A stretch of DNA of 36,366 nucleotides from Treponema sp. (GTDB lineage Bacteria > Spirochaetota > Spirochaetia > Treponematales > Breznakiellaceae), in assembly GCA_009781915.1 (NCBI GenBank), contig WQUW01000012.1, positions 1 to 36,366 on the forward strand, read 5' to 3'. The notes beneath the pieces were generated by a model. The model saw only the letters and a list, made by a program, of their open reading frames with translations. It searched no databases and had not been told where the DNA came from. Positions 1 through 36,366 of the stretch are shown here, in pieces. Both the position numbers and the translations under genes were made by a program. Position 1 is the first letter of the stretch; each line of letters starts with the position of its first letter.

Positions 1-108
1 GACTATACCGTCGGCGCCGGAATTTCACCGGTTCAGTCCGAGCCGTCTGTGGCTACGGAGTCGCGGGCTTTACCGCCGGTCGGGAGTTGCACCCCGCCCT
101 GAAAATCT
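1..108 (-). promoter_or_regulatory. FMN riboswitch (RFN element), 3' edge cut by window start
   Basis: Read on the minus strand, the sequence carries the conserved RFN blocks in order: an AGGGCGGGGTG-type start near 108-95, CCCGACCGGCGGT near 88-72, AAAGCCCGCGA, then GGTGAAATTCC and GCCGACGGTATAGTC running to position 1. These match the known FMN aptamer consensus almost base for base. The aptamer binds flavin mononucleotide and normally shuts off a riboflavin synthesis or uptake gene just downstream. That gene lies to the left of the window and cannot be named here. The last bases of the closing stem are outside the window. Confidence 0.93.
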
Positions 109-154
109 GGTTCACAGTGTAGCTTGGATTGGCGGGTGTGTCAAGGGGCCGAAG

Positions 155-408: not shown

Positions 409-459
409 TAAAACGTAGCCATATGGGTACGATGGTTCCTACCGGGTTTGGAGGAACAA

Positions 460-1428
460 ATGGGGTTAGACATGAAAACCAGAAAAAAGATTTGCACAAG
501 AATTTTCAGGCGGTATCAGAAAGCGGGGAAAAAAGGAAAAGCCAAAATCCTTGAAGAGTATACCCAAACCCTCGGATATAATCGCGATTATTTGGCCTAC
601 CTGCTGACGAACTGGGGGAAAACACGATATGCCCTTTCAAAGGGCAAACCGGTCAAATTTGTTACAAAAGAGCGCCGCCAAAAGCCTTGTGGAGGAAAAA
701 AAACATGCCGGCCGGATAAATATCACAAAGCCTTTGTTAAAGCCCTAAAAGCCATTTGGGAACTTTTCGATTTCCAATGCGGAAAGCTGCTGGCCCCTCT
801 GATAAGAGGGATGCTTTCTTCCTTAGTCCTTGAGTTCAAGCTCAGCAAAGAACTGACTGCGCTGCTTAAATCGGTTAGCCCGGCAACAATCGGCCGCAAG
901 CTCAAAAATGAAAAAGCCCGTTACCGGCTTAAGGGTATACGGACAACCAAATCTGGAAGCCTGTTGAAAACCCAGATTCCTATAAGGGTTTGTTTTGGCA
1001 GGGATCAAAAGCGGCCCGGTCTTTTCGAGGTTGACACCTTAAGCCACTACGGCGCGCGAGCATCCGGTCAATTTCTCCAGACCTTAACCTTAACCGATGC
1101 AGGTTCCGGCTGGACAGAGGAACGCGCGCTTCTAAACAACGCCCACCGCTGGGTCAAGGAACAGATTGCGCGGACAAAAGAAAACGTACCGTTCCCCATG
1201 CCCGGTATCGACAGCGACAACGGCGGAGAGTTCATTAACCATCAGGTTCTTGATTGGCGCGTCAAGAACAATGTTACGTTTATAAGGGCGCGCCCCTATC
1301 GCAAAAATGATAATTGTTTCGTTGAACAGAAAAACGGCGATGTTGCGCGGAAAACTGTCGGGTATGCGCGCTTTGAAGACCAAGATGCGCTAAACGCGCT
1401 TGCGCAGGTGTACAAACATGTAACATAA
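460..1428 (+). pseudogene. Integrase-core (DDE) transposase, 3'-truncated
   Basis: Encodes an N-terminal helix-turn-helix-like region rich in Lys/Arg, then an rve-type integrase core. The DDE residues are visible: Asp in FEVDTLSHYG, Asp in GIDSDNGGEF and Glu in CFVEQKNGD. The arrangement resembles the ISNCY/IS481-like integrase transposases common in spirochetes; the exact family is an inference. The start is set at ATG 460 because GGAGG at 450-454 lies 5 bases upstream; a TTG at 448 is also in frame. The frame ends at QVYKHVT, soon after the catalytic core. Relatives normally continue for roughly another hundred residues, so the C-terminus is missing. The break coincides with the start of the IS256-type sequence, which suggests disruption by that insertion. 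Confidence 0.8.
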
Positions 1429-2439: not shown

Positions 2440-2639
2440 CTGTCATCTCCCGTTGTTTTTATGATTTCATTTTCAACTTTGTCGGTTACCACTTTACCGC
2501 CCAAAAGTTTACAAACACTGTAAATTCCTTTTTTCAATCATTTCTGGTAAAATCGTTAGCAATACGTTCAAAACAATTGAAAATGATGCATCTTGCCACA
2601 TCAAATTTGAGAAATTTGAGGTAATAAGTAGTTTTTGCG

Positions 2640-2760
2640 CAGTCTGAGGCGAAGAAGACCGAGGCTCCGTAGCCGTGTTCCTTGGGCGGGATTCTTAAAC
2701 CTGACTCTCCTTCCCTGCCGGGGCTTTTGGCGGAAATACTCATCTCACGCGCGGCGGGGG
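2640..2760. repeat. Half copy of the palindromic intergenic element
   Basis: Holds only the right half of the family described at 35488: a degenerate loop (GCTCCGTAGC at 2664-2673), then the right arm with TTCTTAAACCTGACTCTC, CCCTGCCGGGGCTTTTGGCG and the terminal GCGCGGCGGGGG ending at 2760. The left arm is missing and replaced by AT-rich sequence. The loop reads in the same direction as the copies at 6977 and 25557, although the inner arm matches those at 21953 and 35488. The end abuts the stop codon of the radical SAM gene at 2762. Confidence 0.85.
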
Positions 2761-6976: not shown

Positions 6977-7176
6977 CCCCCCGCCGCGCGTGAGGTGAGC
7001 ATTCCCGCCAAAAGCTCCGGCAGGGGAGGATGTACGGTTTAAGAAGCCATTTGCCCAGGCTCTTTAGCGTAGGAGACCGTGGCTCCGGAGCGGGTTCCCT
7101 GGGCGGGATTCTTAAAGCGTATATCCTCCCCTGCCGGAGCTTTTGACGGAACTGTTGGCTCATGCGCGGCGGGGGG
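6977..7176. repeat. Full palindromic intergenic element, reversed-loop type
   Basis: Lies between divergent glgX and aspS. The outer arms (CCGCCGCGCG near 6981; GCGCGGCGGGG ending 7176), the GCCAAAAGCTCCGGCAGGGG block and its complement, and the TTTAAGAA/TTCTTAAA inner ends are all present. The inner arms (GGATGTACGG versus GCGTATATCC) are imperfectly paired, so this copy is partly decayed. The loop has GCTCCGGAGC at 7082-7091 and reads opposite to the loops at 21953 and 35488. Confidence 0.9.
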
Positions 7177-9027: not shown

Positions 9028-9050
9028 ACTCACACACGGCGGCGGGGGTG
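9028..9050. repeat. Terminal scrap of the palindromic element
   Basis: The 23 bases here match the right end of the copy at 25557 (25731-25753) at all but about two positions, including CGGCGGCGGGGGTG. No other part of the element is present. It fills the gap between the aspS and larA stop codons, as a leftover of an older insertion. Confidence 0.65.
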
Positions 9051-14278: not shown

Positions 14279-16804
14279 ATGGCCAAGTATCCCTTTCAGA
14301 CTATCGAACCCAAGTGGCAAGCTTATTGGGAAGACCGCAAAACATTCAAGACATTTGACGACCCCGCCTTTCCAAAAGAAAAGCGGCGCTACGTGCTTGA
14401 TATGTTCCCCTACCCCTCGGCGCAGGGCCTTCATGTGGGCCATCCCGAAGGATATACCGCGACGGACATTTACTGCCGCTACCTTAGAATGAACGGGTAC
14501 AATGTGCTTCATCCTATGGGCTTTGACTCCTTTGGGCTTCCCGCGGAAAATTACGCCATCAAAATGGGCGTGCATCCGGCAAAAACCACCGCCAGCAATA
14601 TCAGCCATTTCAGAAAGCAGATAAAGGCGCTGGGCTTTTCCTACGACTGGGATCGGGAACTGGCAACCTCTGACGAGGACTACTATAAGTGGACTCAATG
14701 GATATTCCTGAAACTTTTTGAGAGGGGCTTGGCATACGAGGCGGAAAGCCCCATAAACTGGTGTCCTTCCTGCAAGACCGGGCTTGCCAACGAGGAAGTC
14801 GTGGACGGCCTGTGCGAGCGCTGCAAGACTAGGGTTGTTCGCAAACGCATACGCCAGTGGATACTGAAAATTACCGCCTATGCCGAGCGGCTCCTTGAAG
14901 ACCTAGAGGGCCTTGACTGGCCGGAGCCGGTAAAGATGATGCAGCGGAACTGGATAGGCCGATCCGAAGGGGCAAATGTAATCTTCAAGCTTGACGGGCA
15001 TCCTGACTCTCTTGAAGTCTACACCACCCGCCCGGACACCCTTTTTGGGGCAACCTACATGGTTCTGTCCCCGGAACATCCCCTTTTGGAAAAAATCACC
15101 ACGGCACAGCAGAAGGCCGCCGTAGATTCCTACGTGGAAGACGCGGCGAAAAAAAGCGACCTTGAACGCACCGACCTGGCGAAAACCAAAACCGGCGTAT
15201 TTACCGGGGCATTTGCCGTAAACCCCGCGAACAACGAAAAAATTCCCGTCTGGGCCGCCGACTACGTTCTTGTCTCCTACGGCACGGGGGCCATCATGGC
15301 AGTTCCGGGCCATGATGAGCGGGACTGGGAGTTCGCCAAGGCGTTCAATCTGCCCATAGTCCAAGTTGTCCAAGCGCCCGCGCCAGCCAGCGCCGCAGAC
15401 TCCCCGTACACAGCCGACGGCATCTCCGTAAACTCCGGCCTTATCACCGGCCTTCCAACTGCTCAGGCCAAGGCGAAAATAACCGCATGGCTACAGGAGC
15501 AGGGGCTGGGGAAAAAAGCGGTGAACTACAAGCTCCGGGACTGGATATTCAGCCGCCAGCGCTACTGGGGCGAGCCCATTCCCGTGGTACACTGCGAAAA
15601 CTGCGGCATCGTTGCGCTTAGGGAAGAAGACCTGCCCCTGAAACTGCCCGATGTCCAGTCTTACACGCCCACAGGCACGGGCGAGTCCCCGCTGGCGGCG
15701 ATTTCCGGGTGGGTAAACACCGTCTGCCGCGTGTGTTCAGGCCCGGCAAGAAGGGAAACCAACACCATGCCCCAGTGGGCCGGCTCCTGCTGGTACTATT
15801 TGCGCTACCTTGACCCGCACAACTCAAACGCCTTTGCCGGAAGGGACAAGCAGGATTACTGGGCCCCGGTCGATCTGTACGTGGGCGGTGTGGAACACGC
15901 CGTGCTGCACCTTCTGTACAGCCGCTTCTGGCACAAAGTGCTTTACGACGCGGGCTTTGTCGGCACAAAAGAGCCCTTCATGCGCCTTGTCAATCAGGGG
16001 ATGATCGTTTCTTTTGCGTACCAGAGGAAGGACAAAACGCTCGTACCCACGGACAAGGTGGAAAAAACCCCCGGCGGCGGTTTTGCCGAAATGGAAACCG
16101 GCGAAGAAGTAACGGAAGTTGTCGCCAAGATGAGCAAAAGCCTAAAAAACGTCATTAACCCTGACGAGATAATCAGGGACTACGGCGCGGACTCGCTTAG
16201 AGTCTACGAAATGTTCATGGGCCCCTTGGAAGTAAGCAAACCTTGGAGCACCGCCGGCCTTGTCGGGGTATCCCGCTTTCTGGAAAGGGTCTGGGCCATA
16301 GGAAATAAACCCCTCGCCGCCCATTCCCCGCCTGCCGATCCGGGTTTGACAAAACTGCTCCACAAGACCATCAAAAAAGTAACTGCCGACACAGAAACGC
16401 TTAATTTCAACACCGCCATTAGCCAGATGATGATTTACTCTAACGAGCTTGCGCGGCTGGAAACCGTTCCCCTTTCGCTTTGGGAGCCGCTGGTTATCAT
16501 GCTTAGCGCCTACGCCCCCCATTTGGGGGAAGAACTGTGGGAAAAGCTGGGCCACGCCGAATCGGTTTCAAAAAGCCGCTGGCCGGCATACGATGAAAGC
16601 CTAGCGGCGGACAGCGAGGTTACCATCGTTGTTCAGGTAAACGGCAAAATCCGGGACAAGTTCAGCGTAACGGCGGGAACGGGCAGGGAAGAGCTTGAGA
16701 AGGCTGCCAGAAACCTGCCGGGCGTTCAGAAATGGATTGAAGGAAAAAGCATCGCCAAGGTTATCGCCGTGGTGGACAAGCTGGTGAATATTGTAGTTGC
16801 GTAA
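14279..16804 (+). CDS. leuS: Leucyl-tRNA synthetase
   Basis: Protein of 841 residues, class I LeuRS that charges tRNA-Leu. The HIGH motif is HVGH (residues 52-55) and KMSKS is at 617-621. The zinc-type Cys pairs (CPSCKTGL...CERC) and an editing domain with [21 protein letters not shown] and the [15 protein letters not shown] signature are present. The C-terminal domain ends [17 protein letters not shown] at 14262 or nearby precedes the ATG by about 10 bases. The oddity is at the 3' end: bases 16664-16803 recur at 19184-19323, with an unrelated 2.4-kb gene cassette between. So the present C-terminus may have come with that cassette, and the distal copy may be the original end. Confidence 0.98.
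16664..16803 (+). repeat. Proximal copy of the leuS 3'-end direct repeat
   Basis: These 140 bases, the last 46 codons of leuS, match 19184-19323 at 137 positions, in the same orientation and exactly 2520 bp apart. Two of the three differences change the amino acid (Arg/Gly and Ala/Thr). It forms the left boundary of the islet at 16804-19183. Confidence 0.97.
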
Positions 16805-19160: not shown

Positions 19161-19187
19161 CGCTTGTCCGCAACAGAAAGACAAGCG
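19161..19187. other. Hairpin spanning the islet/leuS-repeat junction
   Basis: CGCTTGTC (19161-19168) and GACAAGCG (19180-19187) form a perfect 8-bp stem with an 11-base loop. The right arm straddles position 19184, where homology to leuS begins. It may mark the recombination site. Confidence 0.6.
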
Positions 19188-19323
19188 TAACGGCGGGAAC
19201 GGGCAGGGAAGAGCTTGAGAAGGCCGCCGGAAACCTGCCGGGCGTTCAGAAATGGATTGAAGGAAAAAGCATCACCAAGGTTATCGCCGTGGTGGACAAG
19301 CTGGTGAATATTGTAGTTGCGTA
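19184..19323 (+). repeat. Distal copy of the leuS 3' end (orphan gene fragment)
   Basis: It matches 16664-16803 with three substitutions and keeps the leuS frame to a TAG stop (19322-19324), where the intact gene has TAA. There is no start codon or ribosome site linked to it, so it is not expressed as a gene. It forms the right boundary of the islet and most likely represents the original leuS end. Confidence 0.95.
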
Positions 19324-21952: not shown

Positions 21953-22140
21953 CCCCCGCCGCGCGTGAGCATTTCCGCATAAAGCTCCGGCAGGAGAGGA
22001 GAATCAGGTTTAAGAAGCCCGCATGGGGAACCCGCTCCGGAGCCACGGTCTCCTACGCGGAGATGCCATGCAAATGGCTTCTTAAACCTGACTCTCCTCC
22101 CCTGCCGGGCATTGTACTGGTGGCTCGTGCGCAACGGGGG
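21953..22140. repeat. Full palindromic intergenic element, forward-loop type
   Basis: The left arm starts CCCCCGCCGCGCGTGAGC at 21953. The inner arms GAATCAGGTTTAAGAAG and CTTCTTAAACCTGACTC pair with one mismatch. The loop contains GCTCCGGAGC at 22034-22043 and reads as in the copy at 35488. The right outer arm has drifted (GCATTGTACTGGTGGCTCGTGCG). It lies between serS and the small gene at 22234, both on the minus strand. Confidence 0.92.
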
Positions 22141-22151
22141 CATTGGCGGGG

Positions 22152-22176
22152 GCCTTCCCGGCGGAGCCGGGAAGGC
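22152..22176. repeat. Satellite hairpin next to the palindromic element (copy 1)
   Basis: GCCTTCCCGG (22152-22161) pairs with CCGGGAAGGC (22167-22176). The same hairpin followed by TGTGCGA recurs at 35713-35737, in both cases just right of a palindromic element. A further hairpin (GGCGGCTGG 22188-22196 with CCAGCCGCC 22218-22226) follows here and may end the small gene's transcript. Confidence 0.75.
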
Positions 22177-22233
22177 TGTGCGAAGCGGGCGGCTGGTTCG
22201 CTGGCTTTTGCCAACTGCCAGCCGCCCCCGCTG

Positions 22234-22395
22234 TTACTTTTTGGGCGGCGCGTTGTTCCTTCCGGGGCCCGTCTTGTTACCGGGACCTTGCGGATTGTTG
22301 TTTGGCCACCCCGCGGGGTTAGACCCATTGTTTGGCGGGATTGGCGCGGGGCGCCCTCCGCCACCACCTTTTGAACCGCTGTTTCCTTTTGCCAT
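22234..22395 (-). CDS. Small Gly/Pro/Asn-rich basic protein, 53 residues
   Basis: A short frame from ATG 22395 to TAA 22234, preceded by AAGGAG with a 6-7-base spacer, one of the clearest ribosome sites in the window. The product begins MAKGNSGSKGGGGG, continues with Pro/Asn/Gly repeats (IPPNNGSNPAG, WPNNNPQGPG) and ends in NNAPPKK. It is low-complexity, basic and has no signal peptide or membrane segment, so it is probably disordered. It lies downstream of the large propeller lipoprotein gene, from which it is separated by a GC-rich hairpin. I recognise no family. Coding is supported by the ribosome site and an intact frame; the function is unknown. Confidence 0.6.
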   Translation of the reverse strand: MAKGNSGSKGGGGGRPAPIPPNNGSNPAGWPNNNPQGPGNKTGPGRNNAPPKK

Positions 22396-22421
22396 GCTAA
22401 ACTCCTTAAATTCTAATTTTT

Positions 22422-22442
22422 ACCCGGCCCTACAGGCCGGGT
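22422..22442. other. GC-rich hairpin between the propeller gene and the small gene
   Basis: ACCCGGCC (22422-22429) pairs with GGCCGGGT (22435-22442) across 5 bases. T-rich sequence follows only on the plus strand, so as a terminator it would act on plus-strand transcription; on the minus strand it may simply separate the two cistrons. Confidence 0.5.
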
Positions 22443-22449
22443 TTTTACC

Positions 22450-25138
22450 CTAAGGAAGCGTTACCTGAATCGGTGTGGCGCTGTTGCTGGTGGTTCCAGT
22501 GCCGACCTGCCCGAAGCCATTGCCGCCCCATGCCCACAGCGAACCGTCCTGCCTGATGCCGGCGGTGTGTTCCCCGCCTGCGGAAATGGCTTGCCATGCC
22601 GTGCCGGCCTGTATCGCCACGGGGCTTGTCCGTGTGGTCGTAGTTCCATCTCCAAGTCTGCCCTCCCCGTTGAATCCCCACGCCCACAGTGAATCATCCC
22701 GCCTAATGCCAGCGGTATGATTATCCCAGCTTGCAGAGACGGATTCCCATTCCGTGCCAACCTGTATCGGAACAGGGCTGACCCTCTGGGTCTGTGTACC
22801 ATCGCCAAGTCTGCCGAAGCCGTTGTTCCCCCATGCCCACAGCGAGCCGTCCGCTCTGGTTGCCATGCTGTGCCAGTTGCTTGCGGATACGGACTCCCAA
22901 GTCGTAACATCTCCTATCGGCACAGGGCTGTTTCGGGCGGTTTCTGTGCCATCACCTAGCCGCCCAAACAGGTTGCTCCCCCAAGCCCAAAGCGATCCAT
23001 CTTGCCTTACGCCCAAGGTATGGCTACTGCCCGCAGATACGGATTCCCATGTTGTGCCAGCCTGTATCGGAACAGGCGCGTTTCGGGTAGCTGCGGTGCC
23101 ATCGCCAAGTCTGCCAGAACCATTGTTCCCCCATGCCCACAGCGAACCGTTGGTTCTGATTGCCATCGTGTGGGCATCGCCCGCAGACACATATCGCCAG
23201 TTCGTATCCGTGCCAACTTGAACGGGGCTGTTCCTTTGCAGTGTCGTGCCATCTCCGAGCCTACCCGAGCCGTTGTTCCCCCATGCCCACAGGGTTCCGT
23301 CCGTCCTTGTTGCCATGGTGTGGGCCGTGCCTGCGGAAACGGAGGCCCATGTGCTGATGCTCCCTATCTGAACCGGAGCGGCGCGGCCGGTCGTGGTGCC
23401 GTCCCCAAGCTGGCCGTTGGCGTTGCTTCCCCACGCCCACAACGTTCCGTCCTGCCTTACCGCCACGGTGTGGAACTCGCCTGCGGAAATGTCCTGCCAT
23501 ACCGTGCCGGGCAGTATCGCCGTGGGGGTGTTGGTGGGGATAAAGCCGTCGCCAAGCTGCCCTGCTCGTCCGTCTCCCCAAACCCATACCGTGCCGTTAG
23601 CCATAACTGCCACGGTGTGGCTTCCGCCCGCGGCGGCAAAGGCCCAGTCCGTTCCGGTTCCTATGCGTGTGGGTGTGTTGCGGTTGGTGGTTGTGCCATC
23701 GCCAAGCCGTCCCTGTCCGTTGTTTCCCCATGCCCAGATCGAGCCGTCGGTTCTGATGCCAACAGTGTGAGGGCTTATCGCGTTGCCTGCGGATACGGAT
23801 TCCCATGTCGTACCCGGCTGTATTGGGACAGGCGCGTTTCGAAGGGTAGTGGTACCGTCGCCAAGCCGCCCGCTTCCATTGCTTCCCCATGCCCATAGGG
23901 AACCATCATTCATCATTGCCACGGTATAAAAGTCACCGGCAGAAACGGAAGCCCATGTCGTCAACGTCCCTATACGTATCGGGGCATTCTCCTGGCCGAA
24001 AAGCACATTCGTGCCGTCACCAAGCTGGCCGCTACTATTACCTCCCCATGCCCACAGGGAACCATCGCTTCTTACGGCCACGGTGTGATTATCACCCGCA
24101 GAGGCCGAAAGCCATGTCTGCCCGGGCTGTATCTGCGCGGGGCTTGTGGTGTTCCCAGCGGTTACCCCCTGGCCTGTTCTGCCGTTCGCGTTGCTTCCCC
24201 ATATCCAAAGCGTGCCATCCGCCCTAATCGCCGTGGTGTGGTTTGATCCGGCGGAAACGGAAGTCCATCGCTCGTGCGCCTGTATCGCAACCGGAGCGTT
24301 TCGGGCGGTGGTGGTGCCGTCGCCAATTCTGCCGTTTGCGTTGCTCCCCCACGCCCAAAGGGTTCCGTCGGTTCTAATGCCCATGCTGTGGGTGTTGCCC
24401 GCCGAAACCGCCGCCCACACCGTGCCGGGCTGTACCTGAACCGGGGTGTTTTGGTTTACGGTATTGCCGTTGCCAAGCCTGCCCTGCCCATTGTTCCCCC
24501 ACGCCCACAGCGATCCATCCGCCGTAATAACCAGCGTGTGCGAAGTACCCGCCGCCGCGCGCCTGCCATCTATTTCCAGCCCCGCGAATACCCGTACCGT
24601 GGCCTCCCCGTAAACAGCCGGGTACCCTGCCGCCGTTGCCGTAATGGTCGCGTCCCCCACAGGCGCGCCCACAGGGACGGTAAGCACGTTGCCCGCGAAC
24701 GTTCCCGCCTCAGCCGGAGTGATGCTCCACGTAACCGTTTGGGACGCGCCCACAGGCCCCACCGCCGCGGTAAAGGTCTGCGTTTCGCCCCATAACAGTG
24801 TCATTACGGGCGGCGTTACCGTAACGGTCTGCGGCCCCCAACGGCGCGCCCGCCGGGACGGTAAGCACGTTGCCCGCAAACGTTCCCGCCCCGGCCGGGG
24901 TGATGCTCCACGTAACCGCCTGTGACGCGCCCTCCGGACCCACCGTTGCGGTGAATGTCATTTCTCCACGCTGTCCAATCGTCGCCGTACCCGGCGTTAC
25001 GGTAACGTCCACAGGCGCTACCCCTTGCGTACCGCCGCCCGCGGGGTTGTCGCAGGCGGCAAGGGATACCGCCAGCCCAAACGCCGCCAGAAGTACCGCC
25101 AGCGCTGCCGGGATGTTAAAAAATCCTCTCTTCCTCAT
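22450..25138 (-). pseudogene. RCC1-repeat lipoprotein with 14 propeller units, frameshifted in the Ig-like region
   Basis: The gene starts at ATG 25138 (AGAGG upstream). A lipoprotein signal peptide (SLAAC, Cys29) is followed by a bacterial Ig-like (Big) domain. The frame then changes near 24835-24840; the downstream frame carries a second Big domain and 14 RCC1-type units of about 50 residues with the core DGSLWAWGNNGxGRLGDGT...W.SVSAG.HT. Seven units make one RCC1 propeller, so 14 suggest two. Near-identical DNA in the two Big domains lies 181 bp apart, one base more than a multiple of three, and the first Big domain lacks its last strands. The break therefore looks like an out-of-frame recombination between repeats, or a lost base in the C5 tract. 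If the shift is real, the propeller has no export signal. The role is unknown, presumably surface binding. Confidence 0.85.
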
Positions 25139-25556
25139 CTTTTTCCTCTCTTTGCGAATAACAATGATGGCAAAGCCCAACGTTCAAAACACGCCCGGAT
25201 AACATCCGGGGACTTGTGGGTCTGGTTCTGATCCGTGAGGTTTTGCCGCAGGTGCATTGCTGTGAATGTGCCGCTGCCCGGAGTACCGTGCGAATTTCGG
25301 GTACACCATATATTGTGGTGAAGGAAAAGATATTGGGAGAAACTACACTACATATGGGGGGGGGTAACTTGCCTGCGTTCTGCCGCTTTAAGCGGCAGTT
25401 TCACGGGCGGGGAAATAATGCTGTTTTCGGCAACATGAGTCATCAAAAGAGAGTATATCTAGCTATCAGCGAAACGTCAACGTTTTTGCGATTTTTTTTA
25501 AAAATTTTTATGCGTTTCCAGAAATGCCTTCATAAATGCGTTTTCCCCCAGCAATG
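25139..25556. other. Intergenic region with G9 tract and palindrome
   Basis: Between the minus-strand propeller gene and the palindromic element at 25557. No convincing gene. It contains a run of nine G (25356-25364) and a near-perfect palindrome CTGCCGCTTTAAGCGGCAG (25380-25398, 9-bp arms around one base). CACCA/TGGTG arms flank an AT core near 25301-25319. These are candidate control sites for the gene starting at 25138. Confidence 0.55.
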
Positions 25557-25751
25557 CCCCCGCCGCGTGTGAGCCTCAGGCCTAATGCCCGGCAGGGGAG
25601 GATAAACGGTTTAAGAAGCCATTTTGCCCAGGCTCTTTAGCGTAGGAGACCGAGGCTCCGGAGCGGGTTCCCTGGGCGGCTTCTTAAACCGTTTATCCTC
25701 CCCTGCCGGAGCTTTTGGCGGGAATGCATGGCTCACGCACGGCGGCGGGGG
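25557..25751. repeat. Full palindromic intergenic element, reversed-loop type
   Basis: The inner arms 25591-25617 and 25681-25707 are perfect complements over 27 bp and contain GGATAAACGG/CCGTTTATCC, where the copy at 35488 has GAGAGTCAGG/CCTGACTCTC. Both strands thus changed together. The loop holds GCTCCGGAGC at 25665-25674 and reads opposite to that of the 35488 copy. The outer left arm is diverged (CCTCAGGCCTAATG). It lies between the divergent propeller lipoprotein genes. Confidence 0.93.
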
Positions 25752-35487: not shown

Positions 35488-35677
35488 CCCCCGCCGCGCA
35501 TGAGCATTTCCGCCAAAAGCCCCGGCAGGGGAGGAGAGTCAGGTTTAAGAATCCCGCATGGGGAACCCGCTCCGGAGCCACGGTCTCCTACGCGGAGAGG
35601 CCATGCAAATGGCTTCTTAAACCTGACTCTCCTCCCCTGCCGGGGCTTTTGGCGGAAATGCTCATGCGCGGCGGGGG
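35488..35677. repeat. Palindromic intergenic element, best-preserved copy (64-bp perfect arms)
   Basis: The left arm 35488-35551 and right arm 35614-35677 are exact reverse complements over all 64 bases; the loop is 62 bp (35552-35613). Order in the left arm: CCCCCGCCGCGCATGAGC end, CATTTCCGCCAAAAGCCCCGG, CAGGGGAGGA, GAGTCAGGTTTAAGAA. The loop contains GCTCCGGAGC (35569-35578) and GGTCTCCTACGC, conserved in every copy. No transposase or ribosome site is inside; translated forms are chance. As RNA it would make a 64-bp duplex; as DNA, a cruciform. It resembles a MITE or REPIN by layout, but I know no named family that fits. Confidence 0.97.
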
Positions 35678-35712
35678 CATTGCTGGGGGGCTCCGCAGAG
35701 CATTAGCCCCCG

Positions 35713-35737
35713 GCCTTCCCGGCGGAACCGGGAAGGC
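35713..35737. repeat. Satellite hairpin next to the palindromic element (copy 2)
   Basis: GCCTTCCCGG (35713-35722) pairs with CCGGGAAGGC (35728-35737); TGTGCGA follows, as at 22152. Here it lies between the element and the 3' end of the leucine-rich-repeat gene. Confidence 0.75.
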
Positions 35738-35764
35738 TGTGCGAGGCGGGGCGGGGTTAGGGGC

Positions 35765-36246
35765 CTACTGGCGCGACCAGCCGCCGCCGGGGCCGGGGGT
35801 GAAGATGAATGTACCCCCCTGCCGGAAGCCGCCACCTTGGGTTTGGCTGTTGTACATTAACAAGAAAGCCTGTCCATGCGTACCCATAGTAGGATGGGTG
35901 ATCCAGGACTGGTAAATTTCTACGCCGTTGCCAATGGTAATACTTGTCAGGGCGTTATTTCCAAATGCCCAATCGTCGATGGTGGTAACGGTTGGGGGTA
36001 TGATAATGCTGGTAAGCCGGTTATCCGAAAATGCCTCTGTGCTGATTTCGGTAATGCCAGAACCAATGGTTACGCTGGTCAGGTGATTGTTATCAAATGC
36101 CTGAGCCCCGATGTTAATAACGCTGTCGGGGATGTCAACGCTGGCTAGGTGATTCTCCCGAAATGCCCCCCATCCAATGCTGGTAACGGTGTCCAGAAGT
36201 ATTAGGCTAGTCAGCGGGGCGTTAATGGCTCCGGGGCCAAAAAGGG
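35765..36246 (-). pseudogene. BspA/TpLRR-type leucine-rich-repeat protein, 3' part, split by an IS
   Basis: On the minus strand about 160 codons are open to TAG at 35765-35767. They encode LRR_5-type repeats of about 23 residues with the core LTSVTIGSGITEISTEAFSDN, LTSIIIPPTVTTIDDWAFGNN and LTSITIGNGV. A Gly-rich tail then ends GGGWSRQ. Such repeats occur in surface proteins of treponemes and oral bacteria, where they mediate adhesion. The frame enters IS3-type sequence at 36247 and meets a stop just beyond it, near 36290, so the 5' part of the gene has been cut off. Whether that part survives beyond the IS is outside the window. Confidence 0.85.
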
Positions 36247-36366
36247 TGGAGTTCCCCCGATTTTTTGGACAGTGAATTAAGCCGCTAAATTATTTGTTAA
36301 TGCTAAAGGTGTAGCATATCCGATTGCCGAATGTCTACGGCGTCTGTTGTAATACATTTCGATGTA
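36247..36366 (-). mobile_element. IS3-family insertion sequence, one end only
   Basis: The terminal inverted repeat reads TGGAGTTCCCCCGATTTTTT from 36247, then GGACA, a form typical of IS3-family ends (5' TG). The transposase 3' end lies 30 bp inside. The element interrupts the leucine-rich-repeat gene and continues past the right edge of the window, so its other end and target duplication cannot be seen. Confidence 0.85.
36277..36366 (-). CDS. IS3-family transposase (OrfB), C-terminal 29 residues
   Basis: The visible end of the protein reads YIEMYYNRRRRHSAIGYATP followed by nine residues and TAA at 36277. The Y-I-E-x-Y-Y-N-x-R-R-x-H-S-x-x-G-Y-x-x-P signature is the standard tail of IS3/IS150-type integrase-core transposases. 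The catalytic core lies outside the window, so activity cannot be judged. The gene is on the same strand as the leucine-rich-repeat fragment it splits. Confidence 0.9.
   Translation of the reverse strand, partial: YIEMYYNRRRRHSAIGYATPLALTNNLAA

Follow-up and report, generated by a model that had tools for sequence, protein, structure and literature searches.

The palindrome at 35488-35677 of the window (the whole stretch of 36,366 nucleotides that was analysed) raises the question of what kind of element it is, how its two arms came to be identical and how it spreads. The recomputed sequence agrees with the earlier note in that the arms are exact reverse complements over 64 bp, the point at which perfect pairing stops, leaving a centre of 62 bp between them as read from a short-read assembly (Table 1). 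Folded as RNA the element reaches -171.8 kcal/mol with a z of -19 against shuffles, and folded as DNA the z is -21 against shuffles. The element had been described as a dispersed intergenic palindrome with a conserved centre and no ORF or transposase inside, and neither was found within it. The sequence to the right of 35677, starting CATTGCTGGGGGG, is part of the element unit and defines its inner side; this extension has a 95% match to 22151-22189. The elements are one family of non-coding hairpins, found so far in a single spirochete family that includes termite-gut species, and each unit is composed of a long near-perfect but hypervariable stem closed by a conserved tip cap.

All of the relatives named earlier in the window, comprising three full copies, a half copy and an end fragment, are present (Table 1). 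Several other features were observed in the window. An rve integrase-like ORF under the Pfam cut-off lies at 448-1428 (+), about 1.2 kb from the half copy, and an FMN riboswitch (RF00050, 81.8 bits) at 1-110 (-) is truncated by the contig end. The 3' end of leuS is present as a 140-bp direct repeat (16664-16803 and 19184-19323, 98%) placed around 2.4 kb of DNA with a weak DUF2715 match and a 313-amino acid secreted-looking ORF. The arrangement resembles an insertion by which the gene end was duplicated; a diversity-generating retroelement was rejected, with three differences between the repeats and no A bias. A promoter-like repeated stretch, TTGACGTTTCGCCAATAGCTGGATATACTC, occurs between the inner end of the element and differing accessory genes at seven other loci (L004, L010, L022, L023, L026, L056, and L061) and at about 25.4 kb (-) in the window.

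Table 1. Element copies, their parts and adjoining cargo in the window
Feature	Position	Strand	Basis
Type A outer arm, reported copy	35488..35551	+	Exact reverse complement of 35614-35677; arm typing
Conserved tip (GGGAACCCGCTNCGGAGCC...GGTCTCCTACGC)	35552..35613	+	146 genome matches; conserved in relatives
Inner arm, symmetrised to type A	35614..35677	+	100% identity with outer arm, though most copies are A/B
Inner extension CATTGCTGGGGGG with small G+C-rich hairpins	35678..35750	+	Inner side only, in nearly all copies
LRR (BspA-type) protein fragment, inner-side cargo; contig end cuts ORF	35768..36289	-	Repeated ITIGNGV/F..N.LTSI units
Full copy, left end of putative cassette, beside serS	21953..22152	+	Profile match; relatives-only model E 5.7e-18
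RCC1-repeat protein gene, cargo flanked by two facing copies	22453..24957	-	Pfam RCC1; ORF map
Full copy, right end of putative RCC1 cassette, inner side toward RCC1 gene	25545..25748	-	Profile match; relatives-only model
A/A solo copy lacking the inner extension, isoamylase on one side and aspS on the other	6978..7175	-	Arm typing; relatives-only model; neighbour Pfam
Half copy, outer arm and tip only	2625..2760	-	Model positions 2-129; partial hit of relatives-only model
End fragment between aspS and larA	9028..9050	.	CTCACACACGGCGGCGGGGG in sequence

The aspS gene of the window has its closest matches in metagenome-assembled spirochetes and Treponema species, several of them probably from termite-gut binning series. 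The own genome is a draft of 2.82 Mb in 180 contigs (97% complete), and the analysis sample was made up of stretches totalling about 0.92 Mb, part of them contigs picked for carrying copies. The tip pattern has 146 matches genome-wide at three or fewer mismatches compared with none for the reversed control pattern, so that the earlier count of six traces in 36 kb gives way to at least 146 tip matches across the genome. The copies are dispersed in both orientations with unrelated outer flanks, and the 92 distinct full copies define the unit as a polar hairpin of about 190 bp. The outer end begins CCCCCGCCGCGCGTGAG and adjoins unique DNA, and the inner end continues into the extension, which is carried by about 40 of the 45 copies examined. 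The usual arrangement of the arms is outer type A and inner type B (69 of 92 full copies) with the two on average 74% alike, and therefore the 64-bp perfect arms, although real at the reported copy, are not typical of the family. Sub-families with quite different stem sequences retain both the tip and the pairing.

The conservation of the fold is apparent within the genome, where 21 of 37 pairs have compensatory double changes among 15 diverse sequences, a level reached by none of 500 shuffles. Searching genome_contigs and IMG/VR for the exact tip, and plasmid and phage collections by distant blastn, gave no match, the exact sequence being too specific, and a structure model is needed. The covariance model suggested in the earlier note finds the element in 17 of 200 genomes of the own family (6 of 57 genera). 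In the relatives (24 copies) 91.8% of cells are paired, compared with 59.8% for shuffled and 36-49% for slid controls, and 33 of 37 pairs are double-changed; fitting this alignment to the model favours structure, but the relatives' raw sequences still have long perfect arms. The tip is conserved in these relatives, and a second covariance model built from relatives only recovers the four full copies of the window with E values from 8e-21 to 6e-18. A scan of 393 genomes from the phylum gave five positives, all in the own family, under strict filters with which absence elsewhere is no proof, and genomes of the same genus (64-86% complete) are without detectable copies. No Rfam family scores above gathering over the element, either in the window or at ten loci of relatives, in keeping with the earlier remark that no named family has this layout. 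Two observations concern single loci in relatives: a 6A RNA (RF02925) over the gathering score at L202 1395-1445 (-), and at L186 (about 1432-1694) a hairpin nested inside a second, outer palindrome with about 38 bp per arm.

Comparison of arm types indicates how the perfect arms arose. In A/A copies with the inner extension (n = 5) the arms are on average 96% alike, with three of the five at 100%, and in B/B copies (n = 4) they are 99% alike, whereas A arms compared between different copies are 84% alike. Because the arms within these copies are closer than those between copies, a few copies, among them the reported one, have had one arm overwritten by the other, A over B in some and B over A in others. 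Template switching at imperfect palindromes can equalise arms (PMC7202029), and a template-switch symmetrisation of an imperfect palindrome would produce perfect arms such as those at 35488-35677. Natural symmetrisation of this type, occurring in either direction within single copies, matches the predictions from laboratory quasipalindromes (PMC7202029). The A/A copies lacking the extension (n = 6) are of another kind, with arms 82% alike and a far end that is another outer end, as if the arms came from two separate copies. Recombination between two facing palindromes would delete the cargo and leave such a solo A/A copy. The earlier expectation that a palindrome of this length is either recent or maintained is right both ways, with perfect arms symmetrised within single copies and pairing maintained across genera.

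The elements sit directly at gene ends, as judged from gene calls made by in-house ORF scoring. Of the 41 copies with an outer gene directed toward the element, 30 have the stop codon of that gene inside the element or no more than 10 bp away, and 11 outer genes share one TGA inside the element that gives the protein tail APRRA. Of the 41 copies with an outer gene directed away, the start codon typically lies at a distance of 40-90 bp. This placement right after stop codons is what would be expected of a structured RNA, a hairpin cotranscribed at the 3' end and serving to terminate or protect the transcripts of both flanks, with RNA selection keeping the stem and tip and the spread by insertion being secondary or old. 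The compensatory changes in the stem and the conserved tip agree with such a role, and YPAL and ERIC are reported to be cotranscribed with effects on mRNA (PMC2229807). However, it leaves the polarity of the unit, the cargo-bearing arrays and the insertion of copy into copy unexplained, and no T run follows the stem in the copies read, making it a minority possibility as the main explanation. An RNA role at gene ends is possible and compatible with mobility.

The two sides of the unit differ substantially. In the own genome the sequence lying 450-950 bp beyond the inner end recurs elsewhere in 69% of cases, compared with 13% for the outer end and a background of 10% (p = 8e-10). The inner-side genes include, by Pfam, BspA-type LRR (LRR_5, the most frequent family), PDDEXK_2 (Rpn), RCC1, PIN and an IS1 transposase, and the outer-side genes fall into 100 families, mostly housekeeping, with outer flanks formed by single-copy core genes. 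Rpn proteins are reported to be anti-phage toxin-antitoxin systems (PMC10327210). Facing pairs lie 0.02-3.4 kb apart and back-to-back pairs 3.3-53 kb (p = 1.5e-5). Of the six facing pairs four enclose gene-sized DNA of 1.3-3.4 kb, examples being 21953-25748 in the window and C54:4611-6345, and long cassettes are hidden by the frequent contig breaks on the inner side. Repeated accessory genes are enclosed by units that face each other, and two such units with the DNA between them would behave as, or would have arisen as, one cassette. The polarity and the bounding of cassettes, neither of which was brought out in the earlier note, are unusual features compared with known hairpin elements. More tentatively, the hairpins may mark the ends by which gene cassettes are recognised in a dispersed system, where a putative folded-DNA enzyme shuttles accessory genes among more than 100 hairpin-marked core-gene sites.

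Integron attC cassettes are also folded palindromic sites, arranged in head-to-tail arrays with toxin genes. The spirochete palindromes resemble them in the fold and in having head-to-tail copies about 1 kb apart that carry Rpn and PIN genes, and the absence of target duplication would suit a scattered integron-like system with the palindromes as attC-like recombination sites. Against this, the spirochete sites are scattered over many chromosomal positions beside core genes and form facing inverted pairs, and no attC core motif was noticed, so that this reading is improbable.

The reading preferred here is that the elements are mobile by means of a putative enzyme acting on the folded hairpin, inserted by gene ends or into the tips of copies, with a facing pair forming a cassette; we regard the chances for and against it as evenly balanced. 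Such an enzyme, the most likely mover, would recognise the hairpin as single-stranded or cruciform DNA and would place the element at such sites. In three cases (C115, C82, and C137) an outer end runs directly into the tip of a different, older copy at nearly the same point. This points to hairpin tips as insertion sites and would agree with terminators being targets. Among 45 copies, for which mostly only outer and inner flanks could be compared, there is no excess of matching flanks indicative of target duplication. A comparison of filled and empty sites was limited to a gene pair with a 108-bp gap in G157 and 441 in G178, the intergenic DNA being too diverged for junctions at the level of bases.

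REPIN-like movement, through a RAYT (Y1) transposase that the draft lacks, is very unlikely. The high copy number, the hairpin and the repeated unit of the relative G178, a 365-bp inverted dimer with inner ends facing as in the own-genome cassettes, would all fit, as would the presence of Y1 genes in six of the nine element-bearing relatives searched. However, Y1 transposase PF01797 is absent from the 97%-complete own genome in a search that was positive in five control genomes, the approximately 1.5 kb flanking ten relatives' Y1 genes to left and right has no element model hit, and the unit of about 190 bp compares with 20-40 bp for REP (PMC3733652). The Y1 transposases observed in several relatives (L264-L273) are RAYT-like and have no element nearby. 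An assembly artefact of palindromic repeats is scarcely credible in spite of the fragmented draft and an element within 200 bp of 22 of 92 sampled contig ends, as many copies lie inside contigs rather than only at the joins considered in the earlier note, with unique and different flanks, long perfect arms occur in relatives too, and a single-contig relative of 4.06 Mb (G042; 4,059,867 bases) has nine model hits.

The hairpin, putatively mobile, is best read as a non-coding element that has spread through intergenic DNA, like YPAL, ERIC, and REPIN in kind and a member of neither YPAL nor REPIN. The original YPAL paper reportedly places YPAL close after stop codons, a position shared by the spirochete element. 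YPAL/RU-2 of Yersinia are likewise intergenic hairpin insertions, 168 bp long, not A+T-rich and located at or beside dyad-symmetric targets (PMC2229807). The sequences are unrelated, the YPAL target duplications of 3-26 bp (PMC2229807) have no counterpart among the spirochete copies, and, in a further difference, the spirochete unit has polarity and delimits accessory genes. REP/REPIN sequences are also high-copy extragenic palindromes with inverted doublets as units (PMC3116915), and inverted doublets of the spirochete hairpin occur in G178 and at cassette ends; the differences are the much larger stem (a hairpin of about 190 bp compared with paired palindromes of 20-40 bp), the lack of a RAYT in the own genome or linked in relatives, and hypervariable stems with a conserved tip. 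ERIC/IRU is a 127-bp intergenic imperfect palindrome (PMC2229807) of unrelated sequence that has short terminal repeats with TA and a target duplication, none of which were seen in the spirochete element. TIMEs resemble the facing pairs in that two miniature elements bound unrelated genes, but have 38-bp Tn3-type ends and 5-6-bp duplications (PMC4133298) in place of hairpins without duplication. In a difference from classical MITEs no transposase-bearing partner sharing ends was found among 47 inner genes, which include one IS1 only and no recurrent transposase. The small plasmid loops derived from IS605 also differ, the spirochete element being about 190 bp, located on chromosomal-type contigs and without an IS605 relation found. 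A match to a known MITE or REPIN family, raised earlier, is not borne out, and the absence of a linked RAYT, of target duplication as in YPAL and of a transposase-bearing MITE partner means the element is a separate variant of intergenic hairpin element.

With this family a structured hairpin element that covaries strongly across genera becomes known from bacteria with a central part in termite digestion, and the conserved tip and covariance model provide a means of finding it. Through its polarity the unit is connected with the dissemination of genes for surface proteins and toxins. If the dispersed cassette system is real, it would give termite-gut spirochetes a scattered equivalent of the integron, moving BspA/LRR, RCC1, and lipoprotein genes and Rpn/PIN toxins.
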